Source: a virus. Taken from it: DNA of 24,447 nucleotides. The translations under genes were made by a program, and so were the position numbers. Positions 9,810-22,540 of this stretch are shown piece after piece (positions within the stretch are counted from its first letter, which is position 1; each line of letters starts with the position of its first letter). Location of the stretch: IMG/VR virus record IMGVR_UViG_3300010379_000055, positions 1-24,447 of that record; one strand, written 5' to 3'. The notes beneath the pieces are model-generated. The model saw only the letters and a list, made by a program, of their open reading frames with translations. It made no database searches and was not told the origin of the DNA.

Positions 9810-10106
9810 ATGGCGAAGGATGCACGCGGACACGGCAGCGACGGGCGCGGCGGCAGTGATGTGGTAGGCAATACTCGTCGCTTCAGTCATGGCACCCCGG
9901 CCGGTATTTCGCTCCACGGGAAATTCTCTGCGGGCCAGCGATCACCGGGCTATCAGCAGGACGACACCAAGCGAACCATTTCTGATTTGCGTTCCCGCCT
10001 TAGCAACACCGGGCCGGGTCATCAGGTCGGGCTACTTCAGGGTATCAGAAATTTTCTCGGCGGCACGGACACACCGAACCGCGCTCCCAACTTCATGAGG
10101 AAGTGA
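9810..10106 (+). CDS. KDxxGHGS-tag protein 1
   Basis: 98 aa. It begins MAKDARGHGSDGRGG, the tag shared with five other genes downstream. The body is polar and flexible (GTPAGISLHGKFSAGQRSPG, then TISDLRSRLSNTGPGHQVG) and ends FLGGTDTPNRAPNFMRK. GAGG lies 8 nt before the ATG. A much longer alternative frame beginning at 9465 runs across the previous gene and is not credible upstream of 9810. No named family; low complexity suggests a disordered protein. Confidence 0.7.
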   Translation: MAKDARGHGSDGRGGSDVVGNTRRFSHGTPAGISLHGKFSAGQRSPGYQQDDTKRTISDLRSRLSNTGPGHQVGLLQGIRNFLGGTDTPNRAPNFMRK

Positions 10107-10107
10107 T

Positions 10108-10182
10108 ATGGCAAAGGACGCGCATGGTCACGGTAGCGAAGCGCATGGCGGACCGGGATCAAGCCGCACCTACAAGGGGTAA
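10108..10182 (+). CDS. KDxxGHGS-tag micro-protein (24 aa)
   Basis: Starts one base after the previous stop with AGGAAG upstream. The whole product is MAKDAHGHGSEAHGGPGSSR followed by TYKG: essentially the tag alone plus a short tail. Its existence as a near-minimal tag protein argues that the tag itself is the functional part, or that this is a remnant of a longer paralogue. Confidence 0.55.
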   Translation: MAKDAHGHGSEAHGGPGSSRTYKG

Positions 10183-10187
10183 TCGCC

Positions 10188-10469
10188 ATGGCGAAGGACT
10201 CCGGTGGTCACGGCAGCGAAAAGCGCGGGGTGCCGACAGGGCAGACGCCCGCCGCACGTGACCGCATCATTCGCAACAAGATGGTCGATCAATCGCATTT
10301 TCCCGTGACCACGGTTTCAGACCGGATGGCCGCGATGGCTCTCGGGCAGAGTCATCCGAAATCTTATGTCTCGCCGCTTGGCGCGAGTTTCGCGGCGGCA
10401 CAGGATCAATTGGACCGAGGACGTAACCTTGCAATGCCGCGCGGGACACCGGGTCGGAGAAAGTCATGA
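10188..10469 (+). CDS. KDxxGHGS-tag protein 2
   Basis: 93 aa, AAGGGG 8 nt upstream. It begins MAKDSGGHGSEKRGV, then has a conserved-looking middle (RDRIIRNKMVDQSHFPVTTV, then SDRMAAMALGQSHPKSY) and a basic, Gly/Pro tail (MPRGTPGRRKS). More structured than its neighbours: predicted helices at about 22-32 and 45-53. Ends in ATGA overlap with the next tagged gene. Confidence 0.7.
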   Translation: MAKDSGGHGSEKRGVPTGQTPAARDRIIRNKMVDQSHFPVTTVSDRMAAMALGQSHPKSYVSPLGASFAAAQDQLDRGRNLAMPRGTPGRRKS

Positions 10470-10783
10470 AGGACGCACAGGGTCACGGTTCGGACGCACG
10501 CGGAGTCGCCGACGCGGCCGCGACCGAAGGGCACATTCCGTCAGTCGGCACACAACTTGATCCGTCTCAGCACACGCAAGTCACGGACTATGATGCGGCG
10601 GGTGCGCTTGCACAGGGCGGCGCTAAGTCGGCTCCGGTTGCCGCGCATCCGGCAATGGCAACTAATCCCCGCTACAATCGAGACGCGGTGAACAATGCCA
10701 TCGCAAGTTCAAACCGCTCCGGTCGCAAGATCGGCGGCCGTGAAGCGAGCCTCATTCACCGGCTCTTGAGCGGAGGGCACTAA
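10466..10783 (+). CDS. KDxxGHGS-tag protein 3
   Basis: 105 aa, ATGA overlap with the preceding gene, GGAGA upstream. It begins MKDAQGHGSDARGV (no Ala after Met), then an Ala/Thr/Gly-rich polar stretch and a C-terminal helix (NPRYNRDAVNNAIASSNRSG, then REASLIHRLLSGGH). The C-terminal GREASLIHRLL could be a short folded element. Function unknown. Confidence 0.7.
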   Translation: MKDAQGHGSDARGVADAAATEGHIPSVGTQLDPSQHTQVTDYDAAGALAQGGAKSAPVAAHPAMATNPRYNRDAVNNAIASSNRSGRKIGGREASLIHRLLSGGH

Positions 10784-10784
10784 C

Positions 10785-10820
10785 ATGGCGAAGGACGCTA
10801 AAGGTCATGGCGATGTTTGA
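10785..10820 (+). CDS. 11-codon mini-ORF carrying a truncated tag
   Basis: GGAGGG lies 7 nt before the ATG, one of the best SDs in the cluster, yet the frame encodes only MAKDAKGHGDV before TGA. The next gene starts inside it (10807 or 10813). Either a tagged gene decayed by frameshift and its SD now serves the next ORF by coupling, or it is a translated leader peptide. Confidence 0.45.
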   Translation: MAKDAKGHGDV

Positions 10821-11205
10821 AAAATCGGAAAAGCCAAAAGGTCCACAACGTGAGCGGAAACCCGGTGAAGCGCCGTTACATCGCATCCCAATCTACGATC
10901 ACAAGGGAAACCAGCGCGGACACGTGGGCCATACCGCGACCGAGGCGACCGTCGCTCGTTTCCTCGGGCGGCGCGGCGCGACTTTGAAACAGAAAGATGG
11001 CCGCAAGGTATGGGTCGGTGATAAGCCGCCGGAGCCGCCGAAGCCGAAATTCCAGAAACCACAGCCGGGCGCGGGTGCGGGCGATGGTCCGAACAACGCA
11101 AATTCGACCGCGGCTCATTCGCTTGAAATTTCACTGAAGGCCGCAAAGGGTAGCACGACAGACAAACCGACAGCGCCCAAAGCTCACGCGAGGCCCGCTC
11201 GATGA
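10813..11205 (+). CDS. Basic protein with a small beta-domain and PKP tail
   Basis: 130 aa from the ATG at 10813, which is 9 nt from AAAGG; an ATG at 10807 would be too close. It is basic at the start (FEKSEKPKGPQRERKPGEAP). A compact middle follows (HRIPIYDHKGNQRGHVGHTA, then TVARFLGRRGATLKQKDGRK and VWVGDK), which looks like a small beta-barrel or RNA-binding-like fold. The C-terminus is disordered and Pro/Lys-rich. It lacks the tag itself but is overlapped by the 11-codon tag ORF. Ends in ATGA with the next tagged gene. Confidence 0.65.
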   Translation: MFEKSEKPKGPQRERKPGEAPLHRIPIYDHKGNQRGHVGHTATEATVARFLGRRGATLKQKDGRKVWVGDKPPEPPKPKFQKPQPGAGAGDGPNNANSTAAHSLEISLKAAKGSTTDKPTAPKAHARPAR

Positions 11206-11672
11206 AAGATGCAAAGGGCCACGGCAGCGAAAAGCGAAGTCAACCCGGTGGTGAGCATCAATCCGGGGTGCGCAATGTTGGGCGGGTCCCAACTGTTTCA
11301 AAGCTTGCGCTTGATACCATCGTCAAGAATGCAAATACGGGATTTTCGGTTAAACCGAATGGATCAATCTAGACTACAGGCTTTCAGGTCGCCGTACAGG
11401 GTCGTACCGATAAAAATCCACTCGACTTGAATAACATTGCCGGACACGTGCAAGCGCATGTCGATGCGAACGCCGACATCTACCGCGATCCGGCAATGCA
11501 CATCGGCGGGCGGTCGTCGCCTTACACGGGTAAGGTTCACTTGGAGCCGTCGCAGAATGTGCCGGATCGGGAAACCGCCGAGCGACTCGGGCGCGAGCGC
11601 GAGCGCGATCAAGTTGAGATTTGGGACAATAAGAATTTGACTAACATTAAGACGGGCGGAACAGGTAAGTAA
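11202..11672 (+). CDS. KDxxGHGS-tag protein 4, interrupted by an in-frame amber codon
   Basis: The frame starts MKDAKGHGSEKRS at the ATGA overlap and runs 56 codons to TAG at 11370-11372, then continues in the same frame with no further stop to TAA at 11672. Residues on both sides of the TAG read as one protein: NTGFSVKPNGSI before it, TTGFQVAVQGRTDKNPLD after it. The C-terminal part (HVQAHVDANADIYRDPAMHI, then ERLGRERERDQVEIWDN) is well folded in style and has no SD of its own, only a TTG at 11427. Full length would be 156 residues. A read-through product, a recent nonsense mutation and a sequencing error are all possible. Confidence 0.55.
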
Positions 11673-11683
11673 TGCCCCGTTGC
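11670..11683 (+). promoter_or_regulatory. 14-bp leader element, copy 2
   Basis: Exact copy of 9463-9476, again starting at the stop codon of the preceding gene. TTGCAT at 11680-11685 is followed 17 nt later by TATCAC (4 of 6 matches to a -10 box). Just after it GGAAGG (11697-11702) can pair with CTTTCC (11708-11713). The next gene starts at 11735 in CCATGG context. Confidence 0.6.
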
Positions 11684-11734
11684 ATTTATCTCTGACGGAA
11701 GGTATCACTTTCCAATACTTTGAGAGGACGTGCC

Positions 11735-11908
11735 ATGGCGAAAGACAGCAAATTCTATGCCGATGCGTGCAACGGCGGCCAGCCGGTGCAGGGCGATGAC
11801 CACGCCGCCGCCGTGCTCGCGCGGGGCAGCAATCGTTCGCAGAAAGTGCCAATAGCGAAGGGCATGAAGGATGTGAACGCGGCGGGTGGCAAGCTCACCG
11901 GTCGGTAA
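11735..11908 (+). CDS. Small protein MAKDSKFYADAC
   Basis: 57 aa, GAGAGGA upstream, ATG at 11735. It begins MAKDSKFYADACNGG, keeping the MAKD of the tag but not GHGS, so it may be a distant relative. The rest (DDHAAAVLARGSNRSQKVPI, then GMKDVNAAGGKLTGR) is polar. It follows the second 14-bp element by 51 nt. No family recognised. Confidence 0.65.
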   Translation: MAKDSKFYADACNGGQPVQGDDHAAAVLARGSNRSQKVPIAKGMKDVNAAGGKLTGR

Positions 11909-11914
11909 CGTGCT

Positions 11915-12094
11915 ATGCCCTTCAAGAAAAAGGGCAAGGATGACTATACCGGGCCGTCCGGTAAGCACTTTGACTTGGCGCAAGTGAAACTTTATTACTC
12001 GCTTGGCGGTAAGTTCCCCGGCCAGAAAAAGCGGGGGAAAGCTCCGGCGCATCAAGCCGGAATACACCGCGCTACCGCCGGAAAATCCCTCTGA
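11915..12094 (+). CDS. Basic 59-aa protein
   Basis: Starts 6 nt after the previous stop. It begins MPFKKKGKDDYTGPSGKHFD, then a hydrophobic patch (LAQVKLYYSLGGKFPG) and a basic tail (KKRGKAPAHQAG). The KLYYSLGGKF segment is the only part that looks folded. It ends in TGA directly followed by the third 14-bp element. Confidence 0.6.
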   Translation: MPFKKKGKDDYTGPSGKHFDLAQVKLYYSLGGKFPGQKKRGKAPAHQAGIHRATAGKSL

Positions 12095-12108
12095 TAATGC
12101 CCCGTTGC
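12095..12108 (+). promoter_or_regulatory. 14-bp leader element, copy 3
   Basis: Exact copy of 9463-9476, placed directly after the TGA stop. TTGCTA at 12105-12110 is followed 17 nt later by TAGGTT. Downstream, TCCA and TGGA around 12147-12158 can form a small hairpin that includes part of the GGAGG SD of the gene at 12169. Confidence 0.6.
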
Positions 12109-12168
12109 TAATTTTCCTCGCCGCCGTTAGGTTTGCGACGATGATTTCCATTTTTGGAGGGTATCGCC

Positions 12169-12621
12169 ATGGCTGAACAAAGTTCAGGCACGAAGCCGAT
12201 GGGTGCGACGGTTGACCCGGCGCAGAAGTCGAGCATCACAACTTCCCCGATCAATCCGCGCTCCGGCGCAGCGAAGAAAACTCAGTCGAGCTTTCCGGTG
12301 CATCCGCAGATGGTGGACCAGCAAAAATTCTCAGGTGCGTCACCGGGTGCTTCCGGCAGCGGACCAGACGCTTCCTCGCCGAACGTCATGGACCCGTCCC
12401 CGCGCGTGACGCTGAAACGGCAGCCGCAAATTCTCAAGACGCCGTGGAACCACTACGACAATCTCGGTCCGAACCGATCCTCGCTCGACGCGAACGCGGC
12501 CGGAAAAGTTCTCAACGATGCCGTACTCTCCGGCTCGACCAAGCTGCCCAATGCTCCGGCATTGAAAACTGATAGCGGCAAAGCCCCGTCTCCGTGGCCT
12601 GCGGCTGACGCTGGTGGCTAA
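12169..12621 (+). CDS. Low-complexity Ser/Pro/Gly-rich protein
   Basis: 150 aa from the ATG at 12169 (GGAGGG 8 nt upstream). It is polar and disordered-looking: MAEQSSGTKPMGATVDPAQK, then SSFPVHPQMVDQQKFSGASP, with one patterned segment (LKTPWNHYDNLGPNRSSLDA) and a helix (AAGKVLNDAVL). FPVHPQMVDQ is reminiscent of VDQSHFPV in tag protein 2. No family recognised; probably a flexible virion or assembly accessory by position. Confidence 0.65.
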   Translation: MAEQSSGTKPMGATVDPAQKSSITTSPINPRSGAAKKTQSSFPVHPQMVDQQKFSGASPGASGSGPDASSPNVMDPSPRVTLKRQPQILKTPWNHYDNLGPNRSSLDANAAGKVLNDAVLSGSTKLPNAPALKTDSGKAPSPWPAADAGG

Positions 12622-12623
12622 CC

Positions 12624-12959
12624 GTGACGCGCGCCTTTCACGGCGCTCGTCAGGGCATTCGGTCCGCGTCTGTTAACGTCGCACCCGGCTTTGACTCGAC
12701 CAATCCGGCGAATATCGCCAAGGCTCCGGCATCGCAAGGTGCCGAGGCCGTTTCTGTTATCGGCCACGGTAACGTGAAACCAGCTTTCGCAGCGGCCGTC
12801 ATGCACAATGATCTATCGGATGACGCGAAACTCGTCGCCAATGGATTGCGGAATGTGCCGATCCATCCGAATCAAGTTGCGGTTGAAGGAAGTGACAAGC
12901 AGGGATGGGGTGGTGACGCCGCGCAGCACGATCCGACCGGACAGGGGTTCGGGACATGA
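12624..12959 (+). CDS. Hypothetical 111-aa protein, GTG start
   Basis: GTG at 12624, two bases after the previous stop. MTRAFHGARQGIRSASVNVA leads to FDSTNPANIAKAPASQGAEA, a central helix (FAAAVMHNDLSDDAKLVANG) and the motif VPIHPNQVAVEG. VPIHP recurs in the gene at 13057 (GDVPIHPGLK). Ends QHDPTGQGFGT in ATGA overlap with a tagged gene. Confidence 0.6.
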   Translation: MTRAFHGARQGIRSASVNVAPGFDSTNPANIAKAPASQGAEAVSVIGHGNVKPAFAAAVMHNDLSDDAKLVANGLRNVPIHPNQVAVEGSDKQGWGGDAAQHDPTGQGFGT

Positions 12960-13060
12960 AGGATGAAAAAGGACATGGCAGCGACTCGCGCACTGGCGGC
13001 GCAGCGCCCGCGCATCAGAGCGACATTGCCAAAATTTTTGCTGTGGGGACACCGCTATGA
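12956..13060 (+). CDS. KDxxGHGS-tag protein 5 (34 aa)
   Basis: ATGA overlap at both ends and AGGGG upstream. The product is MKDEKGHGSDSRTGGAAPAH followed by QSDIAKIFAVGTPL. After the tag a short hydrophobic helix (DIAKIFAV) is the only other feature. It is the last full copy of the tag family in the window. Confidence 0.6.
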   Translation: MKDEKGHGSDSRTGGAAPAHQSDIAKIFAVGTPL

Positions 13061-13548
13061 ACATGACTGGCGGCATAGGTTCGGCACCATTACCGAAGCG
13101 TAATCGCGGTTTGGACTCGACACGGCCGACACAGGATCAGGAAAGCGATCTACCGAATACTGGCGGCACTGCACCGGGCGGTATCGTAGCGTTCATGGGT
13201 CAGGCATCGCAGTGGTCAGAGTCGAACGCGGCGGCACACCGGAATGGTCCGGTCGATATAAATGTCGCCGCAAAGCAGATGGCATTGCATGCCAAAGGGC
13301 AGTCACAAGATGTCGGCCCCGAGGAAAAGGGTGACGTTCCAATTCACCCCGGTTTGAAACCGGGCTTGTTCCGCACCGCGAGAGATGCTAACTACATCTC
13401 CCCGGACGGCAAAGCTGAAGCGCCGTCGCAAACGAATTTGAATTTCTCGGCTGCTGAGACAGGCGGCCATCCATTGTCCCCCGATGGAAAGTCACGAGGC
13501 GAAAGTCCCGAGCGCGAGAAAAATCCGCGCGGAGCGTATCGGCCATGA
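13057..13548 (+). CDS. Hypothetical 163-aa polar protein
   Basis: ATGA overlap at both ends. Gly/Pro/Asn-rich: GSAPLPKRNRGLDSTRPTQD, then a helix (FMGQASQWSESNAAAHRNGP), VDINVAAKQMALHAKGQ, the shared VPIHPGLKPG motif, and a charged, disordered tail (PDGKSRGESPEREKNPRG). No family recognised. It shares the VPIHP motif with the gene at 12624 and a GLDST/GFDST segment, suggesting distant paralogy. Confidence 0.65.
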   Translation: MNMTGGIGSAPLPKRNRGLDSTRPTQDQESDLPNTGGTAPGGIVAFMGQASQWSESNAAAHRNGPVDINVAAKQMALHAKGQSQDVGPEEKGDVPIHPGLKPGLFRTARDANYISPDGKAEAPSQTNLNFSAAETGGHPLSPDGKSRGESPEREKNPRGAYRP

Positions 13549-14591: not shown

Positions 14592-14607
14592 GCGCGGATG
14601 GCCGCGC
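14592..14607 (+). other. GC hairpin in the terminase leader
   Basis: GCGCGG at 14592-14597 pairs with CCGCGC at 14602-14607 around a 4-nt loop. The 124 nt between 14521 and the terminase start hold no convincing gene. This hairpin, 38 nt before the ATG, is the only structure I see there. Confidence 0.35.
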
Positions 14608-14645
14608 ACACGGACATGGGTTCGTGCAAAAGTTTGGAGGCTGCC

Positions 14646-15338
14646 ATGGGGCAGGAAGTTGTAAAGCGCAAGCCGGTGCCGCCGGACCGTCTGGTCAAAG
14701 GCCGCTATACGCCGGGCACCCTTCTCCTAATCATAAAACGTGTCGCCATTTCACCGAGTCTTACAGATGTGTGCGAAGCCGCGCGCATCTCAACAGACAC
14801 GCTCGATTATTGGCTCATGCTGAGCAAAACGAAACCGGAGCACAATGCTTTCAATGTTACGATCAATGGTGAGACGCGCCGTTTTCACCAGTGGTACAAC
14901 GAAGCTCGACAGGCGTGCACTAACAAAGTGCTCAATCATGTTTACGAAACAGCATCGGGTCAGGCGCGTGAGCAAAGTCGCTTCCGTGGTCGTCTCGTCT
15001 ATAAAGAGGACCCGGAATTGCTTAAGCTTCTCGGTCCGACGTTCGCGGGCACGTCAGCGGTATATTTGCGCGACGAGAACGGCAATGCGATTCCTGAAGA
15101 TTTCCCATTCCGTGATATGGAAACCGCCCGATGGTGGTTGACATACATGATGCCGGAAACATTCGGCAAAACGCAACGCATCGACGTGACGCATCGAGGC
15201 GGCGTGCTCGTGGTCGGCGCGAAGATGAAGCCCGAGGAATTGGAGCGGTACGCGAACGCTGCGCCTGTGCACGATGTGGAATTCACAGAAGTGCTGCCGG
15301 ATAAGCCGGGCGACGGCGATGACCCGCTACTCAAATGA
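14646..15338 (+). CDS. terS: Terminase small subunit-like DNA-packaging protein
   Basis: 230 aa. The ATG at 14646 is chosen for GGAGG at 14635-14639; a frame from 14598 would begin without an SD. An N-terminal helix-turn-helix is visible at about 36-57 (SPSLTDVCEAARISTDTLDY), typical of small terminases that bind the packaging site. A central helical region (HQWYNEARQACTNKVLNHVY) would oligomerise, and the C-terminus is acidic (VLPDKPGDGDDPLLK). Its position directly before and overlapping the large terminase (ATGA) is the strongest evidence. Small terminases diverge widely, so similarity is by architecture. Confidence 0.75.
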   Translation: MGQEVVKRKPVPPDRLVKGRYTPGTLLLIIKRVAISPSLTDVCEAARISTDTLDYWLMLSKTKPEHNAFNVTINGETRRFHQWYNEARQACTNKVLNHVYETASGQAREQSRFRGRLVYKEDPELLKLLGPTFAGTSAVYLRDENGNAIPEDFPFRDMETARWWLTYMMPETFGKTQRIDVTHRGGVLVVGAKMKPEELERYANAAPVHDVEFTEVLPDKPGDGDDPLLK

Positions 15339-16972
15339 AACCGATCAGACCAAAATATCCGGGTCCGACCGTTTATCGCTTCTTAGAGCGCGACGGTGAA
15401 TTTGTTCCTGTCATCATTGACGATGACGGAAACGAAAAGGAAGTCGTGTGGGCACCGATGCCCGGATCGCAGGATATTTTTCTGCGCTGTGACGACATCG
15501 AAGTTTTACTCGAAGGCAACCGGGGCGGCGGTAAGACAGATACCGCTCTCATGGATTTCTATCAAGATGTTGGCAAAGGCTACGGCGCAAATTGGGTCGG
15601 CGTGCTCATTCGTCAAACCCATCCGATGTTGCGCGACGTGATTGAGAAAAGCAAAAAGCTTTACAAACGTCTGTGCCCGGATGCGTTCTACAATGAGATA
15701 AAATATATGTGGGAATTTCCGGGCGGTGAACGCTTGTACTTTTCTCACTTCAATGCCGAAACTGACTTCGATAATTTCATCGGCCATAACTTCACGTGGA
15801 TATGTTGGGAGGAATTGTCACGGTGGGCGACGCCGACATTTTATCTGCAAATGTTTTCGTGCTTGCGGTCGGCGACGCCGGGAATTCCACGCAAGGTCCG
15901 AGCAACGACAAACCCCTATGGTGTGGGCCACAATTGGATACAAACGCGCTTCAAATTGCAGCAATGGCCGCGCAAGGACAAGGATGGCAAAGTGGTCATC
16001 CTCGGCGAGCGCATTGTTGGCGACCGAGACCCAAAAACCAATCTGTTATATCCGCCACGCCGCGCGATCCATAATGATCTAGCCGAAAATAAAATCTTGA
16101 TGCATACGGACCCGGATTATCTGGCCCGTGTCAGCCAGTCGGCGCGCAATGAGTCGGAACGTCGCGCATGGGTCGAAGGATCATGGGATATAACCGCTGG
16201 CGGAATGTTTGACGACATCTGGTCCGAACTTATGGACATCATCGTGATGGACGAATTCGACATCCCGGTGCACTGGCCGATCTTTCGTGCATACGATCAT
16301 GGATCGAGCAAGCCATGGTCGGTTGGGTATTACGCGGCGAGCGATGGCACCGATCTACCATTGCGCAACGGTAAAGTTCGGTCTACGGTGCGCGGTGATT
16401 TGTTTCGAGTTGGGGAAATTTACGGATGGACCGGCCAAGATAACGAGGGCTTGCGTTTGCCGGTAGCCGAGATCGCAAAACGTATCGTTGAATATGAAAT
16501 CAAACGCGGATGGCGAGACGCGACTACCGGCAAAAGCAAGATCAAACGCGGTCCGGCCGATACTGGCATTTTCGACGACGTGAATGGCGTGTGTATCGCC
16601 AATGACTTCGAGAAGCCGGTCATGGTGCAAGGTAGGAATTTGCCGGGCATCGTATGGGAGAAAGCCGACAAGGGTCCCGGATCACGCGAGCAGGGGTGGG
16701 AGCAAATTCGTAAGCGTCTCACCGCGACCAAGCGACCGCCGAATGGCTATCGAGAAATCCCCGGTCTTTTTATTATGAAAGAGGCCAATGCGCGCGGTGT
16801 TCCGGTGCTAAATCATTGGATTAGAACTGTCCCCGGTTTGCCGCGCGACGAAAAGAAAATAGACGACGTTGATACCGAGGCAGAGGATCACGTCGGCGAT
16901 GAAACGCGGTACGCCTTGCGTTTTGAGCGGAATTGGCATAAGCCGATGTCCGGCCGCGTATCAGGAACCTAA
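15335..16972 (+). CDS. terL: Terminase large subunit (ATPase-nuclease)
   Basis: 545 aa, the usual length. The packaging ATPase has a Walker A at 61-68 (GNRGGGKT), a Walker B at 155-160 (ICWEEL, with Glu-Glu) and the coupling motif TTNP at 191-194. The RNase H-like nuclease half contains D321 (FRAYDHGSSKPWSVGYY), the middle aspartate (GPADTGIFDD, near 409) and the final acidic cluster (AEDHVGDETRYALRF, near 518-522). It drives ATP-dependent packaging of concatemeric DNA into proheads through the portal and cuts it. It overlaps the small subunit in ATGA. All key residues are present, so it should be active. Confidence 0.95.
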   Translation: MKPIRPKYPGPTVYRFLERDGEFVPVIIDDDGNEKEVVWAPMPGSQDIFLRCDDIEVLLEGNRGGGKTDTALMDFYQDVGKGYGANWVGVLIRQTHPMLRDVIEKSKKLYKRLCPDAFYNEIKYMWEFPGGERLYFSHFNAETDFDNFIGHNFTWICWEELSRWATPTFYLQMFSCLRSATPGIPRKVRATTNPYGVGHNWIQTRFKLQQWPRKDKDGKVVILGERIVGDRDPKTNLLYPPRRAIHNDLAENKILMHTDPDYLARVSQSARNESERRAWVEGSWDITAGGMFDDIWSELMDIIVMDEFDIPVHWPIFRAYDHGSSKPWSVGYYAASDGTDLPLRNGKVRSTVRGDLFRVGEIYGWTGQDNEGLRLPVAEIAKRIVEYEIKRGWRDATTGKSKIKRGPADTGIFDDVNGVCIANDFEKPVMVQGRNLPGIVWEKADKGPGSREQGWEQIRKRLTATKRPPNGYREIPGLFIMKEANARGVPVLNHWIRTVPGLPRDEKKIDDVDTEAEDHVGDETRYALRFERNWHKPMSGRVSGT

Positions 16973-17004: not shown

Positions 17005-17472
17005 ATGCCGTATGTTAACCAAAAGCGCCAGTTGTCGTATTGGCGTACCTACAATGCAAATCGGCGGGAGGCTCAAATCCTCTACATGGCGAGCTATGCA
17101 AAACAACCGCACGCTATCGAAGCGCACAAGGAAGCGGACGACCGATGGAAAGCTAAATGGCCCCTTCGACGCATGCTGCGCGTGGCACGCTATAGGGCAA
17201 AGCAAGCGGGACTGGAATTTAATATTACAGAGATGGATTTATCACCGCCGACTCACTGTCCGGTGTTTCCAGAAATTGAGTTGAAATACACAAACCATGG
17301 TCGCGGTGATCAGGCCGGAGCGTCACTAGACAGAAAGGACAATAGCAAAGGCTATGTACGCGGAAACGTCGTTATCATGAGCTTACGTGCTAACCTGCTC
17401 AAGAACGACGGTACGGCCGCCGAACACCGCGCTATTGCAAATTGGATGGAGGCGGCCTTTGGCATTGGATGA
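17005..17472 (+). CDS. HNH-type endonuclease between terminase and portal
   Basis: 155 aa, GGGGG at 16993-16998 before the ATG. A basic, helical N-terminus (KAKWPLRRMLRVARYRAKQA) leads to THCPVFPEIELKY and then ASLDRKDNSKGYVRGNVVIM, SLRANLLKNDGTAAE. The SLDR.D..KGY..GNV..S.RAN..KND signature is that of phage HNH / endonuclease VII-like proteins. Such enzymes act either as homing endonucleases or in packaging and resolution beside the terminase. The first metal-binding Cys cluster is reduced to a single Cys (residue 85), so activity is uncertain. The next gene starts inside its last 8 nt. Confidence 0.7.
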   Translation: MPYVNQKRQLSYWRTYNANRREAQILYMASYAKQPHAIEAHKEADDRWKAKWPLRRMLRVARYRAKQAGLEFNITEMDLSPPTHCPVFPEIELKYTNHGRGDQAGASLDRKDNSKGYVRGNVVIMSLRANLLKNDGTAAEHRAIANWMEAAFGIG

Positions 17473-19108
17473 CAAACACCCTGAATTCATAGCTCGCATC
17501 GGCGAGTGGGTACAGATGCGTGACACGTATGATGGTGAGCGTGCGGTCAAGAAAAAGCGACTCGAATATCTGCCGCCTACTGAAGCAATGACGCAAGACG
17601 GGATGACGACGCCACAATCGCCGGGCTGGCGCGATTATGAAGCATATTTGATGCGCGCGTTTTTCCACGACGTTGTGCACGACTCGGTGAAAGCCATGGT
17701 CGGCATCATGCATATGAAACCCGCGACTATCAAACTGCCGCCGCGCCTATCCGGGATGATGGATAAGGCGACCATTCAAGGCGAAGGCTTGCAGATGCTT
17801 ATTCGCCGGATCAATGAAGCGCAATTAAAATTTGGCCGCTGTGGTTTGCTGGTCGATGCGCCGACAGGTTCGGACCCGAATATGGCGTTGCCATACATCG
17901 CGTTCTATGAACCCGAGCGGATCATCAATTGGGACGCGGGCCGACGCGATGAGGGCCGCAACATGCTAGAACTTGTCGTGCTCGACGAGTCGGGCTTTCA
18001 ACGCGAGGGCTTCACGTGGGTTACCGAGCGTAAACATCGCGTGTTAACACGTGGCGTTCCGCAAAGTTTGGAAAGCGGCTGGACGCGGCCCGACTATGCT
18101 GACAATTTTGCCGTTTGTGTTAAAGTCAATGATATGTCTATGCCCATTCCGCAGGATTTCATTTTCCCGCAGATCGCCGGGCGCTATTTGCAAGACGTGC
18201 CGTTCACGTTCATCGGTTGCAACGATCTTGTGCCCGAGCCGGACGAGCCACCGCTTCTCGGGCTGAGCAATTTGGCATTGGCAATTTATCGCGGCGAAGC
18301 TGACTACCGGCAAACACTATTCCTTCAGGGCCAGCAAACTCTCGTTATCATCGGGCCGCAGGATGAAGCTGACAATCAGCTTCGCGTCGGCGCGAAGGGA
18401 CTTATCAGTTTGCGCCAAGGCAGCGACGCCAAGTATGTCGGCGTAAGTGCGCAGGGCCTTGGCGAAATGCGTCAGTCGATTGCGGCCGATAAACAGGACG
18501 CCGCAACATTCGGCGTTCAATTCATGGACATCGGCAGCGCACGTGGTGAGTCGGGCGAAGCCCTGCGTATTCGTGTCGCTGCGCGCACGACAACTATCTC
18601 GGCTATCGCACAAGCCGCTGGCGCGGGTCTCGAAAACGCTTTGAAGCAATGCGCGGTATGGGTCGGAGAGGACCCGAGCACCGTATCGGTTGTTCCGCAG
18701 ACCGATTTCTCGGACAGCAATGTCGCGGGCGCTGCACTGCTGGCCTTCATGCAAGCGAAGCAACTCGGCTTGCCGCTGAGTCTGAAGTCGATCCACCGTA
18801 TGATGCAGTTGAACGACTTGACAGAAATGGACTTCGACGCGGAGAACGAGCAAATCGAGGACGAGGCCGAGACGCTTATCGGCACGATGGTGCACGGTTC
18901 AAATATCGGCGATACGGACGAGTCATTCCTCGACACACCGCCGACTGGCGGCACGGACCCAGCGAACCCGGACCAAATTATCCCACCTGCCGATCCTGCG
19001 GCCGTCATTCCTCCGAACCGGAACGTTCCGGTTACGCCACATACACGCGGGTCACCTGTCCCCCTGAAACGCAAGGTCGGCCCGAAAGGCGCGTCGGCCG
19101 GGAAGTAA
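17465..19108 (+). CDS. DUF4055-type phage portal protein
   Basis: 547 aa from a TTG at 17465 that overlaps the HNH gene; GGAGG lies 12 nt upstream, which is rather far, but an earlier start would enter the other gene. The opening HPEFIARIGEWVQMRDTYDG, then ERAVKKKRLEYLPPT, and the block LGLSNLALAIYRGEADYRQT, then LFLQGQQTLVIIG, are the characteristic segments of DUF4055 proteins, which occupy the portal position in many siphovirus-like genomes. The protein would form the dodecameric vertex through which the terminase loads DNA. The C-terminal tail is Pro/Asp/Gly-rich and disordered. Confidence 0.85.
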   Translation: MDDKHPEFIARIGEWVQMRDTYDGERAVKKKRLEYLPPTEAMTQDGMTTPQSPGWRDYEAYLMRAFFHDVVHDSVKAMVGIMHMKPATIKLPPRLSGMMDKATIQGEGLQMLIRRINEAQLKFGRCGLLVDAPTGSDPNMALPYIAFYEPERIINWDAGRRDEGRNMLELVVLDESGFQREGFTWVTERKHRVLTRGVPQSLESGWTRPDYADNFAVCVKVNDMSMPIPQDFIFPQIAGRYLQDVPFTFIGCNDLVPEPDEPPLLGLSNLALAIYRGEADYRQTLFLQGQQTLVIIGPQDEADNQLRVGAKGLISLRQGSDAKYVGVSAQGLGEMRQSIAADKQDAATFGVQFMDIGSARGESGEALRIRVAARTTTISAIAQAAGAGLENALKQCAVWVGEDPSTVSVVPQTDFSDSNVAGAALLAFMQAKQLGLPLSLKSIHRMMQLNDLTEMDFDAENEQIEDEAETLIGTMVHGSNIGDTDESFLDTPPTGGTDPANPDQIIPPADPAAVIPPNRNVPVTPHTRGSPVPLKRKVGPKGASAGK

Positions 19109-19111
19109 ATC

Positions 19112-20038
19112 ATGGCCGGAGTCGAGGACGAAGCACGTAATCAGCGCGGTGAGCGGACGACTGGTGGCAGCGGCGGTGAACAAACCGCACAAGCGTCGCG
19201 TGAGCACGCCGCGAAGATCGCAGACGGTCACACATCGCTGAAGGGCTTGCCGCAGACCCCGATGAAATTGAAGGACGGATGGTATACGCCGGGGCCTATG
19301 GGGCGTCTGCATGATGCGGCCGAAGCCTACATGAAATCCGCCGGACTCGATTACAACCCGCCAAAAACTTATCAAATGTCGGACCCGGCACAGGGCGCGC
19401 GGATCGCACAAGCTTTCGAGAATATGAAGCATGACCCGGCTGACCCGGCCGTTAAAGCATCCTATGAGGCGCTCGCAAAAGAAACCATGGCGCAATGGCA
19501 AGCGATCAAAGCAACAGGACTTCAAGTCGATTGGATTAAACCGGGCCAGAAAGACCCGTATGCCGACACGCCACGCTCAGCCGAAATGGATGTGAGCGAG
19601 AATAATCATTGGTGGGGTTTTCCGACCGATGAAGGTTTCGGCAGTGATCCCAACTTGAAAAATAATCCGCTGCTTCAGCCGTCTGGTGAGATCATCGGTG
19701 GCAAGCCTGCACTCATCAACGACGTGTTCCGTATCGTGCACGATATATTTGGACACATCAAAGAGGGTAATGGCTTCTCCCCGAGCGGTGGGGACAATGC
19801 GTGGCGTTCGCACTACGCCATGTACTCTCCCGCCGCTCGACCGGCTATGACGACTGAGACGCGGGGACAAAGCTCGTGGGTCAACTACGGTCCTCACGGT
19901 GCGACTAATCGCGCGGCGCTATATGGTCCTAATGCAATGAATGCGTCCTCGAATACGGGCGGCGGTGTTATCTATGCGCCGCAGAAAATTGGCTTGCTGC
20001 CCGAGTGGGCGCAGGAAGGTGCGAAGGATAAATCATGA
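19112..20038 (+). CDS. Phage polyvalent-type domain protein with HDIFGH and ETRGQ motifs
   Basis: 308 aa, starting 3 nt after the portal gene. The first 55 residues are polar and disordered. The conserved core is ALINDVFRIVHDIFGHIKEG (HDIFGH at 210-215), then GGDNAWRSHYAMYSPAARPA, MTTETRGQSSWVNYGPHG (ETRGQ at 249-253) and YAPQKIGLLPEWAQEG. This set recurs in phage and mobile-element proteins, in large polyvalent proteins and often mis-annotated as a crystallin-motif protein. The HDxxGH and ETRGQ residues look catalytic or metal-binding, but no reaction is known to me. A stand-alone copy next to the portal suggests a protein packaged in or ejected from the virion. Confidence 0.6.
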   Translation: MAGVEDEARNQRGERTTGGSGGEQTAQASREHAAKIADGHTSLKGLPQTPMKLKDGWYTPGPMGRLHDAAEAYMKSAGLDYNPPKTYQMSDPAQGARIAQAFENMKHDPADPAVKASYEALAKETMAQWQAIKATGLQVDWIKPGQKDPYADTPRSAEMDVSENNHWWGFPTDEGFGSDPNLKNNPLLQPSGEIIGGKPALINDVFRIVHDIFGHIKEGNGFSPSGGDNAWRSHYAMYSPAARPAMTTETRGQSSWVNYGPHGATNRAALYGPNAMNASSNTGGGVIYAPQKIGLLPEWAQEGAKDKS

Positions 20039-20607
20039 CAACGAGGCAGGAAATCGCCGCGTGGAATAGTCATCGTCGAGCGCATCGGCTGCAACACTCA
20101 CCGCGTACATTGGCGCGCGAGCGTAGCATTAAGCATGCGAATGCGTGGAATACCGCCATTGCCATACTCGACCAGACCGAGCTTAAGCTACGCGACTTGA
20201 TTGAACGCGAGCTTGCGCCGGTTGCCGGGCTGAGTCACGAGAAATTTGGTGACGCCATGAAAGCTGCTAAAAAGGTCATGCGCAAGATCGAGGGACTGCG
20301 CACGAGCGCATTCAAGAAAGCGTTCCGCCACATCCGTGCTCTCGTGGGTCCGTCGAAGATTGCCGGATATTCACTCGCCACGTTGGCAGCGTCGCTTGCT
20401 CGCGATGACAGGGCACGGATTGACAACGCGGTACGTTCAGGGTTAATAAACGGCCTAAATAGCACGGCAATCGCCCGGCAAGTCGTCGGCAGCGCGGGAA
20501 TGCGCGGTATCGACGGAGTGACGGAAGTCACCCGGCAGCGCATTGCAAGACTTGGCCGTGCAGCGGTTAAGCCGCGTATTCTCCGCAAAAAGGGAAACAA
20601 GCTATGA
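20035..20607 (+). CDS. MuF/SPP1 gp7-like head-morphogenesis protein
   Basis: 190 aa, ATGA overlaps at both ends. It is basic and mostly helical. The segment ARIDNAVRSGLINGLNSTAI, then ARQVVGSAGMRGIDGVTEV, then TRQRIARLGRAAV matches the N-terminal helical part of minor head proteins that sit beside the portal (IxxaixxGlxxGxsxxxIarxixGs...Gv...Tr). The usual C-terminal MuF motif with conserved His/Arg is absent, so it is short. Position after the portal agrees. Moderately sure of the family. Confidence 0.6.
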   Translation: MTTRQEIAAWNSHRRAHRLQHSPRTLARERSIKHANAWNTAIAILDQTELKLRDLIERELAPVAGLSHEKFGDAMKAAKKVMRKIEGLRTSAFKKAFRHIRALVGPSKIAGYSLATLAASLARDDRARIDNAVRSGLINGLNSTAIARQVVGSAGMRGIDGVTEVTRQRIARLGRAAVKPRILRKKGNKL

Positions 20608-21009: not shown

Positions 21010-21873
21010 ATGGCGAAGCTTAAGACGATTTACGATACGCAAGAGGAAATCCCGGAGGGTCTCGCCGATTACTACGTCGAGCGCAACGGGAAGTTTGAAC
21101 TGCAAGCCGAGGGAGTCAAGACGCAAGCGGACATCGACCGCGTGCAGGAAGCTCTCCGAAAAGAGAAAACCGATCACAAGGCAACGCGCGAGAAGTTGTC
21201 GGCGTTCGGCGATCTCGATCCGGCTGTCATTCCCGATCAACTCGCCGAGCTTGAAACCGTCAAGACGCAACTCGACGCGGCGATCAAGGACGGCAAAATC
21301 AACCCCGAGGCGCAGCAAGCGCACATCGACGCGGCCGTGAAGCGCGCCCTCGGCCCGAAAGAGCGGGAAGTCACTCAGCTACAGCGTGACCTTGACGCCG
21401 CACGCAAGACGGCCACTGAGAAAGACGCGGAAGTTTCCGCGTTGAATACCAGCATCAAAAAGGGCAAGATCGTCGGCGCTCTGCGCGATGCTGCGGCCGT
21501 GGCGAAAGTCATCCCTTACGCAATCGACGATGCCGTGATGAACGGCACCGACATTTTCGAGATTGGCGAGGATGGCCGCATTCTGACGAAGGACGGCGTA
21601 GGCGTCACGCCGGGCATCGAACCGAAGGAATGGTTGAAGGACATGCAAGAGGCAAAGCCGCACTGGTGGCCGCAATCTGTTGGCGGTGGTTCTGGTGGCG
21701 GACGCGGGAGTCCCGGCAATCGCACCGACAACCCGTGGACGAAAGAGGGCTGGAACCTCACGAAGCAGGGGCAGTACGTTCGCCAGTTCGGCGAAGCAAA
21801 AGCTGCGGAAGCTGCGAAGGCAGCGGGAGTCACGGTCGGTGCGACGAAGCCTGCCGAGAAAGCCGCCGCTTAA
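21010..21873 (+). CDS. Scaffold-like coiled-coil protein
   Basis: 287 aa, with GGGAGG 5 nt before the ATG. The N-terminus is short and folded (YDTQEEIPEGLADYYVERNG), followed by a long charged helical region (QEALRKEKTDHKATREKLSA, then REVTQLQRDLDAARKTATEK) typical of phage scaffolding proteins. The C-terminus contains DNPWTKEGWNLTKQGQYVRQ and an Ala-rich helix (FGEAKAAEAAKAAGVTVG), which recurs at the end of phage scaffold/minor structural proteins. It would guide capsid assembly and then be removed. The Gly-rich linker at about 226-238 is flexible. A major capsid gene is expected next but is not obvious. Confidence 0.7.
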   Translation: MAKLKTIYDTQEEIPEGLADYYVERNGKFELQAEGVKTQADIDRVQEALRKEKTDHKATREKLSAFGDLDPAVIPDQLAELETVKTQLDAAIKDGKINPEAQQAHIDAAVKRALGPKEREVTQLQRDLDAARKTATEKDAEVSALNTSIKKGKIVGALRDAAAVAKVIPYAIDDAVMNGTDIFEIGEDGRILTKDGVGVTPGIEPKEWLKDMQEAKPHWWPQSVGGGSGGGRGSPGNRTDNPWTKEGWNLTKQGQYVRQFGEAKAAEAAKAAGVTVGATKPAEKAAA

Positions 21874-21875
21874 GT

Positions 21876-21936
21876 GTCCCCGGTTAAACGTCGGCACTTA
21901 GCAATAAGTGCCGACGATTACTTCATGCGCGGGGAC
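21876..21936 (+). promoter_or_regulatory. Nested hairpin leader over the SD of the 21941 gene
   Basis: Inner stem: 11 perfectly paired bases, 21889-21899 against 21906-21916, loop of 6. Outer stem: GTCCCCG at 21876-21882 against CGGGGAC at 21930-21936. The right arm of the outer stem is the GGGGA that serves as SD for the ATG at 21941. The structure begins just after the scaffold-like stop (21873). It may set the ratio of the two proteins or act as a transcription terminator with leaky passage. Confidence 0.55.
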
Positions 21937-21940
21937 GGCT

Positions 21941-22540
21941 ATGCCGGTCACATACGAATTCACAGGTCCGAACCCTTGGGATAAAGCGACGTGGGACCCG
22001 CGTGCGCAAATCGAATTCATGCGCGCTACTCGCGCGGATAGTGCATATCGGGGCGACAAGCATGCGCAGGATCGTATAAATCAACGCATAGCACAGTCGG
22101 ACACGAAGGGCATTCCACCGAAGGTGGAAAAGAAAGTTCCGTTCCAAGTCATCATTGAAAAGCGGTTCTATCCAGCAACGTCCGACATAGGCGAAGCGGT
22201 CACGCTTGGTTTTGGCGAGACCGGACCTATGCACGCGGGCAATCAGTACCCGCTTGCGATCTCGTCTCAGGTCGTTACGTTTCCTAGCGCCACGACGCCG
22301 AGTCAGAGCGCATGCGTTGTGCCTGCAACCGGCCACGCGACGGTCACGCTCGAAGATGCTCACGGCAATATTATCTGCATCGTTGAATTTGCCCCGCTCA
22401 TGTTTACGGGCACGTTCGATTGGACTTCTCCCGCCACGACTTATCCGGCAGGTACAATTTTGTATGTGGTCGCTGACGGCGATCCGACACTATCCGGTGT
22501 GACGCTTGCGTTTGTCGGAACAGCGGGTAACGCGCCATGA
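21941..22540 (+). CDS. Hypothetical beta-rich structural protein (199 aa)
   Basis: 199 aa from the ATG at 21941; an upstream in-frame start at 21908 lies inside the hairpin leader and is unlikely. The N-terminal third is polar (EFTGPNPWDKATWDPRAQIE, then RINQRIAQSDTKGIPPKVEK). The rest is beta-type (VPFQVIIEKRFYPATSDIGE, then HATVTLEDAHGNIICIVEFA and PAGTILYVVADGDPTLSGVT). By position after a scaffold this could be capsid, decoration or head-fibre protein, but it does not resemble any major capsid fold I know and is short for one. Confidence 0.65.
   Translation: MPVTYEFTGPNPWDKATWDPRAQIEFMRATRADSAYRGDKHAQDRINQRIAQSDTKGIPPKVEKKVPFQVIIEKRFYPATSDIGEAVTLGFGETGPMHAGNQYPLAISSQVVTFPSATTPSQSACVVPATGHATVTLEDAHGNIICIVEFAPLMFTGTFDWTSPATTYPAGTILYVVADGDPTLSGVTLAFVGTAGNAP

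Follow-up and report, generated by a model that had tools for sequence, protein, structure and literature searches.

The window analysed in this study is the whole of a 24,447-base IMG/VR virus record (IMGVR_UViG_3300010379_000055). Six of its genes, starting at positions 9810, 10108, 10188, 10466, 11202 and 12956, were found to open with a common N-terminal peptide of the consensus M(A/S/P)KDxxGHGS[D/E/N]xRGG, referred to below as the tag, and a further copy, MAKDAKGHGDV, lies at 10785. These seven had been listed in the original prediction, an earlier reading of the same DNA, and all of them were recovered; at the DNA level, a degenerate pattern encoding KDxxGHGS[DE] is found six times in the window and never in 100 dinucleotide shuffles. 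Relatives were gathered by pattern scans of viral contigs, which returned 45, 40 and 34 stretches, many of them with four to ten tags and some with a single tag or a chance match. These relatives, cited below by L numbers, are IMG/VR contigs.

The tagged genes of the window form part of a cassette of small genes, all on the plus strand. The gene MAKDARGHGSDGRGG... (9810..10106; 98 amino acids, aa) has a body of the family T(I/V)SDLRxRLxxTGPGHxxGLLQGIxN, which is tagged in 12 loci. The next open reading frame (ORF), MAKDAHGHGSEAHGGPGSSRTYKG (10108..10182), had been described as little more than the tag; at 24 aa it is indeed short, but its tail GSSRTYKG consists of the final eight residues of a tagged family of about 150 aa. 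Because this C-terminus is that of the family in L003 and L012, and the family comes after a 9810-type gene in L003, L012 and L034, the ORF looks like a deletion remnant of such a gene. Family members of the tagged gene MAKDSGGHGSEKRG... (10188..10469, 93 aa) also occur in L012 and L064. The tagged gene MKDAQGHGSDARG... (10466..10783, 105 aa) contains the modules KSAPVxxH and, at its C-terminus, KIGGxEAxxIHRLL. This C-terminal module of about 36 aa (AVxxAIASSxRxGxKIGGKEAxxIHRLLKG) recurs on several tagged proteins, such as those of L050 and L058, and is also present in an unannotated intergenic stretch (58061-58168) of the cultured Rhizobium phage RHph_Y1_11.

The mini-ORF MAKDAKGHGDV (10785..10820) is a bare tag and a relic. 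We read it as a stray tag since homologues of the untagged gene at 10807 are never tagged, and a +1 frameshift fusing the two was dismissed on the same ground. The gene MKDAKGHGSEKRS... at 11202 bears the E domain described below. Its start had been placed correctly, but the gene really runs from 11202 to 11672, with an in-frame TAG (11370-11372) breaking it; the homologues have no such stop, and in relatives the gene is intact and tagged. For this TAG a nonsense mutation, a sequencing error and a suppressed stop are alternatives, the gene being otherwise intact and conserved. Broken genes are found under three of the seven window tags, namely the 24-aa remnant, the bare tag and the TAG-cut gene. 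The cassette gene MAKDSKFYADACNGG... (11735..11908) has only the MAKDSK portion of the tag together with a KSxxVP module, and the tagged gene MKDEKGHGSDSRTGG...AHQSDI (12956..13060, 34 aa) is a short one occupying a variable slot. The remaining cassette genes are untagged: a conserved, basic gene without cysteine (10807..11205), with eight of nine family members cysteine-free, a gene present in nearly all tag-bearing loci (12169..12621), with 24 of 25 family members cysteine-free, and two conserved genes without cysteine (12624..12959 and 13057..13548).

A total of 272 distinct tagged N-termini were found in the related contigs. In the first set, the pattern [KR][DE]xxGHG was N-terminal in 239 of 242 matches, the other three being RD-type matches inside longer frames. 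The tagged bodies fall into 92 clusters at 60% coverage, 71 of which are singletons, the input set still holding about a dozen excluded false positives. An HNH protein with a tag-like start (L039) was omitted from the lineage counts, and the tag internal to a 1684-aa ORF of an unrelated contig (L059) was handled as an exception. A search by the portal only, and not by the tag, yielded fourteen loci with 6.2 kb or more of upstream sequence, some of them on near-identical contigs; the tag stood at the expected place in thirteen and on the opposite strand in none, and in the fourteenth (L181) four genes bear an alternative tag and one starts with (M)RDAKGHGS. Other phage groups have one tagged gene, which is located between the portal and the scaffold/major head gene in L052, directly upstream of the terminase large subunit (TerL) in L083, at the small subunit (TerS) in L058 and L053, and right after the portal in L057, where that portal is 35% identical to the one in the window. 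L052 and L083 are P22-like, and the tag spans phages with differing portals and capsids.

True tags were also observed in two Hyphomicrobiales contigs from metagenome-assembled genomes (L072 and L078) among 11 bacterial-genome matches. Most of the 11 were set aside as a host signal, being chance or subtilase motifs, and two that are subtilase-like (L073 and L076) were excluded. No further tag matches were found in 397 Hyphomicrobiales genomes, and Hyphomicrobiales are only suggested as the host. A subtilisin-type protease, which has a DxxGHGT motif, was ruled out as an explanation, as the phage tags are N-terminal on unrelated bodies and without the context of a catalytic domain. A tblastn search with the tag alone found no match in cultured phages and plasmids, short queries being insensitive; no PHROG models were returned for the tagged proteins of the window, and no paper containing the tag strings searched was found among the full texts covered.

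The position of the tags was determined in 12 long contigs of 62-127 kb each (1.08 Mb in sum). All 94 matches to the core motif are on the strand of TerL; the opposite strand has none, and the control, in which the pattern was reversed, also gave none. Eighty-six are located within 9.1 kb upstream of TerL (range 1-9 kb), whereas the other eight, in five contigs, come after the tape-measure gene and before the next large gene of the tail region (about 860-890 aa), and no matches were found elsewhere. The clustering of N-terminal matches upstream of terS, which had been proposed as a check, is therefore seen, together with a second site after the tape-measure gene. Homologues of the tagged bodies amount to 281 tagged versus 53 untagged ORFs. 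Many of the untagged homologues are contig-edge fragments, and those in L028 and L040 have GHG changed to GRG; others are located outside the tag array, which argues that the tag follows gene location and not fold. The module at 6530-6787 of L011 has untagged copies in L056 and L031, each with a cysteine that is absent from the tagged versions.

The tagged proteins are small (median 122 aa) and 93% of them are net basic, the members of the lineage being mostly of 74-167 aa and single-module. Their 26,227 residues include only seven cysteines, of which four belong to a single spurious-looking frame (L015:11870), compared with 0.92% cysteine in other ORFs of the same contigs and 1.15% in TerL. 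Among the tagged proteins 214 of 217 are cysteine-free, versus 68 of 235 other ORFs (Fisher p about 1e-62, a value inflated by sequence relatedness), and the scaffold, MuF-like and post-portal proteins likewise contain zero cysteine. This depletion is in keeping with residence in a particle outside the cell, under oxidising conditions, or with passage through a narrow channel.

The bodies behind the tag had been called unrelated and low-complexity. We observed instead recurring modules, the commonest of which is a well-folded domain. Two sub-motifs recur above shuffles (HxxG[VIT] in 91 proteins versus 15 expected; KSx(2-4)PxH in 45 versus 0.8), and effector-type domains were recognised on tagged proteins with Pfam and PHROGs, namely ART-PolyVal (8.7e-14), a rifampin-type ART (Arr; 7.4e-7), GNAT (7.3e-8) and ParB-like domains (PHROG 4.1e-6; Pfam 2.7e-4 at the tail site). 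The commonest tagged body, the E domain, corresponds to positions 290-397 of phrog_3170 and is an uncharacterised domain of large phage proteins of the polyvalent type. Both the E domain and the post-portal domain of the window (positions 187-259) match one 433-aa mycobacteriophage (Bixzunavirus) protein (Dietrick gp98). A fold search connected large phage proteins with the E domain, among them a protein that has a zeta-toxin domain and another called XkdF. The post-portal domain also occurs in a protein of Planktothrix phage Pag-Yong1 annotated as 'large polyvalent protein'. No solved structures resembling the E domain were found at E 0.001, the best VIA-align Z of 3.9 being counted as no information. 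In the AlphaFold prediction for a tagged E protein, residues 1-23 have a pLDDT below 50 and most of the remainder is near 90, so that in this model the tag is a flexible peptide on a folded domain.

Two other N-terminal tags were found. The second tag, M(A)W[ST]DEARxA[AS]xxAR, occurs on the four genes of L181 (4490-6320); the E-domain gene is among them, and one body can therefore bear either tag. One gene each in L005 (417), L012 (4432, minus strand) and L036 (1522, minus strand) likewise starts with it, and over these four contigs together its form is M(A)W[ST][DE]EARxA[AS]xxxR. A wider DNA scan returned few loci, with the motif internal to another protein in two of four (L188 and L190). The third tag, M(T/A)F(D)PNExRDxHGRWTxGG, starts the post-portal gene in over a dozen contigs, for example in L005 (11469), L033 (8862), L038 (9155), L161 (11897 and 12778) and L164 (11710), and is degenerate at 19112 of the window. 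The proteins with this tag have differing bodies of about 200-920 aa, all cysteine-free, and an ART-like body (FHGTT...) was spotted by eye in L169 and L174. The first and third tags have the pattern [KR]DxxG[HR]x[ST] in common, which is only a suggestion that the two might be related. In L135-L137, RDAHGRWSTSGG is found directly before the E domain, in the place taken by the first tag in other phages.

The head genes of the window are located downstream of the cassette, also on the plus strand. They comprise a terminase small subunit (14598..15338), assigned by its position and a weak PHROG match, TerL (15335..16972), a portal protein (DUF4055; 17387..19108), a cysteine-free post-portal protein (19112..20038) with the degenerate third-type tag MAGVEDEARNQRGERTTGG and the phrog_3170 domain mentioned above, a MuF-like head morphogenesis protein (20035..20607) and a cysteine-free head scaffolding protein (21010..21873). 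No prohead protease was recognised among them. A small-endonuclease-like ORF (17005-17472) is present between TerL and the portal and overlaps the portal ORF, and similar ORFs occur in some relatives only. In 10 of the 12 long contigs, the C-terminal NPWxKxxWN... segment of the scaffold reappears a short way downstream of the gene for that protein. In the window, the gene that comes next (21908-22540) opens with a similar NPWDKATWD; the segment is possibly a shared head-binding motif. The closest cultured phages are Roseobacter phage RDJL3 and Nipunavirus NP1, with about 47-49% identity in the terminase and portal.

The tag is conserved at the level of the peptide, is N-terminal, occurs at two virion-gene sites and on dozens of body families, and is replaceable on the same body. 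Its position, the cysteine depletion, the basic charge, the effector domains, the swapping of tags and the tagged genes beside head genes in other phages make it probable that the tag is a virion-incorporation address label at the N-terminus of a fast-changing arsenal of delivered effectors. The disordered tag, (A)KDxxGHGS[D/E/N]xRGG, would steer many small interchangeable proteins into the virion during assembly. The pre-terminase cassette and the slot that follows the tape-measure gene would serve as docking bays, and an effector gene that gains the tag would become cargo. The tagged proteins would then be delivered to the next host alongside the DNA and act on it immediately, in host take-over or counter-defence. 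Physical packaging, ejection or delivery, the receptor and the host targets are all matters that we infer. The original prediction had proposed a targeting or docking signal, such as one for capsid packing, within the cassette that immediately precedes the terminase. Position, chemistry and domains agree with this proposal, although in view of the tail-side site 'capsid' may be too narrow.

Several observations weigh against such an address label. The untagged cassette genes are equally cysteine-free, and the signature is thus not tag-specific. Most of the tagged bodies have no recognised domain, the HEIGH peptidase-like match (0.003) is weak and under the Pfam cut-off, and the predicted structure of that protein (pLDDT 55) was not used. 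In RDJL3 and NP1 the block begins with the terminase genes and the stretch inspected carries no annotation of a tag cassette, which implies that the cassette is not essential for assembly. A literature search for virion proteomics of relatives returned none bearing on the cassette. Finally, the codons AAA, first GGA, CAC and AGC are favoured in the tag, which leaves some scope for action as nucleic acid. A signal for docking or localisation within the infected cell, acting by binding to the nucleoid, an assembly site or a hub protein of host or phage origin and without virion incorporation, would suit the occurrence of the tag in phages with different portals and capsids (the P22-like L052 and L083, and others), for which a common host partner could account. 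However, it agrees poorly with the restriction of the tags to the neighbourhoods of head and tail genes in the 12 long contigs, and with the cysteine-free signature that the tagged proteins share with head-interior proteins, and we consider it rather improbable.

The element could also work as DNA or RNA, either as a recombination seam for the shuffling of bodies or as a translation-start enhancer. The bodies do behave like an array of shuffled cassettes, certain codons, AAA among them, are favoured near the start, and some starts overlap the preceding stops. Identical-codon pairs within a contig are somewhat commoner than the codon usage of the bodies predicts, an excess consistent with shared descent or a start-region bias. 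On the other hand, GHGS has 63 DNA spellings in 228 tags and the third codon positions are much less conserved than the first and second (0.27-0.45 bits at the two Gly codons), so the earlier claim that the peptide rather than the DNA is conserved holds, with a codon choice that is not fully random. The tag is moreover always in frame and N-terminal, and the same body can have a different peptide, MW[ST]DEAR..., in its place. We regard a role as nucleic acid as unlikely and assign a slim chance to either form of it. The cassettes are also tandem arrays with decayed members (10108, 10785 and 11202 in the window), as might be expected if the shared N-terminus were a functionless leftover of tandem duplication, but K, D, G, H and G are fixed across the 228 tags despite the dozens of body families, unrelated groups of phages also have the tag and homologues outside the cassette are untagged, all of which leaves this explanation with hardly any credibility.

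The address-label reading may extend to the other tags. We tentatively propose, as something possible but short of probable, a modular loading code in which at least three short, partly interchangeable N-terminal tags (KDxxGHGS..RGG, W[ST]DEARxA..AR and RDxHGRWTxGG) would sort effectors to different virion stations (a head bay before the terminase, a post-portal slot and a tail bay after the tape measure), so that a library of individually tagged single-domain effectors would stand in for a multidomain polyvalent effector. If the tag does load particles, one regular expression would list the delivered arsenal of a whole phage lineage, and dozens of families without a known domain would be strong candidates for a part in anti-defence or the early take-over of the host. 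Being a short and portable peptide, the tag would also lend itself to the loading of chosen enzymes into siphophage-like particles, much as the capsid targeting sequence (CTS) does for T4, and virion address tags would have evolved more than once and be swappable.

The CTS of T4 is an N-terminal sequence of about ten residues on IPI-III and on Alt, an ADP-ribosyltransferase (ART), which are packaged in the head and delivered, and it is sufficient for targeting foreign proteins in T4 (PMC9026906). In both systems a short N-terminus is common to divergent, small, basic and fast-evolving proteins. They differ in that the CTS has no sequence likeness to the tag, and in that up to 13 tags per contig, a siphophage-type gene order, the post-tape-measure site and alternative tags are found here. 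A T4-type prohead protease cleaves the propeptide at a hydrophobic-x-Glu site, and this site is absent from the tag consensus KDA[K/L]GHGS[NDE]xRGG. Since there is neither a sequence relation nor a counterpart of the T4 cleavage step, we suggest that the tag works like the CTS and is not a member of that system.

The polyvalent proteins of phages are likewise delivered and have a domain repertoire that includes ART, GNAT, ParB-like and metallopeptidase domains (Iyer et al. 2017, PMC5512222). The same repertoire is found beside portal and head genes here as in polyvalent proteins and MuF-linked effectors, the peptidase match here being weak, and the commonest tagged body is itself a domain of polyvalent proteins. 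Whereas those proteins combine 2 to 15 domains per chain, the domains described here are for the most part found singly on small proteins that each have a copy of the tag. The 433-aa Bixzunavirus protein (phrog_3170) contains the post-portal domain of the window and the E domain, but with the two fused and without the KDxxGHGS tag.

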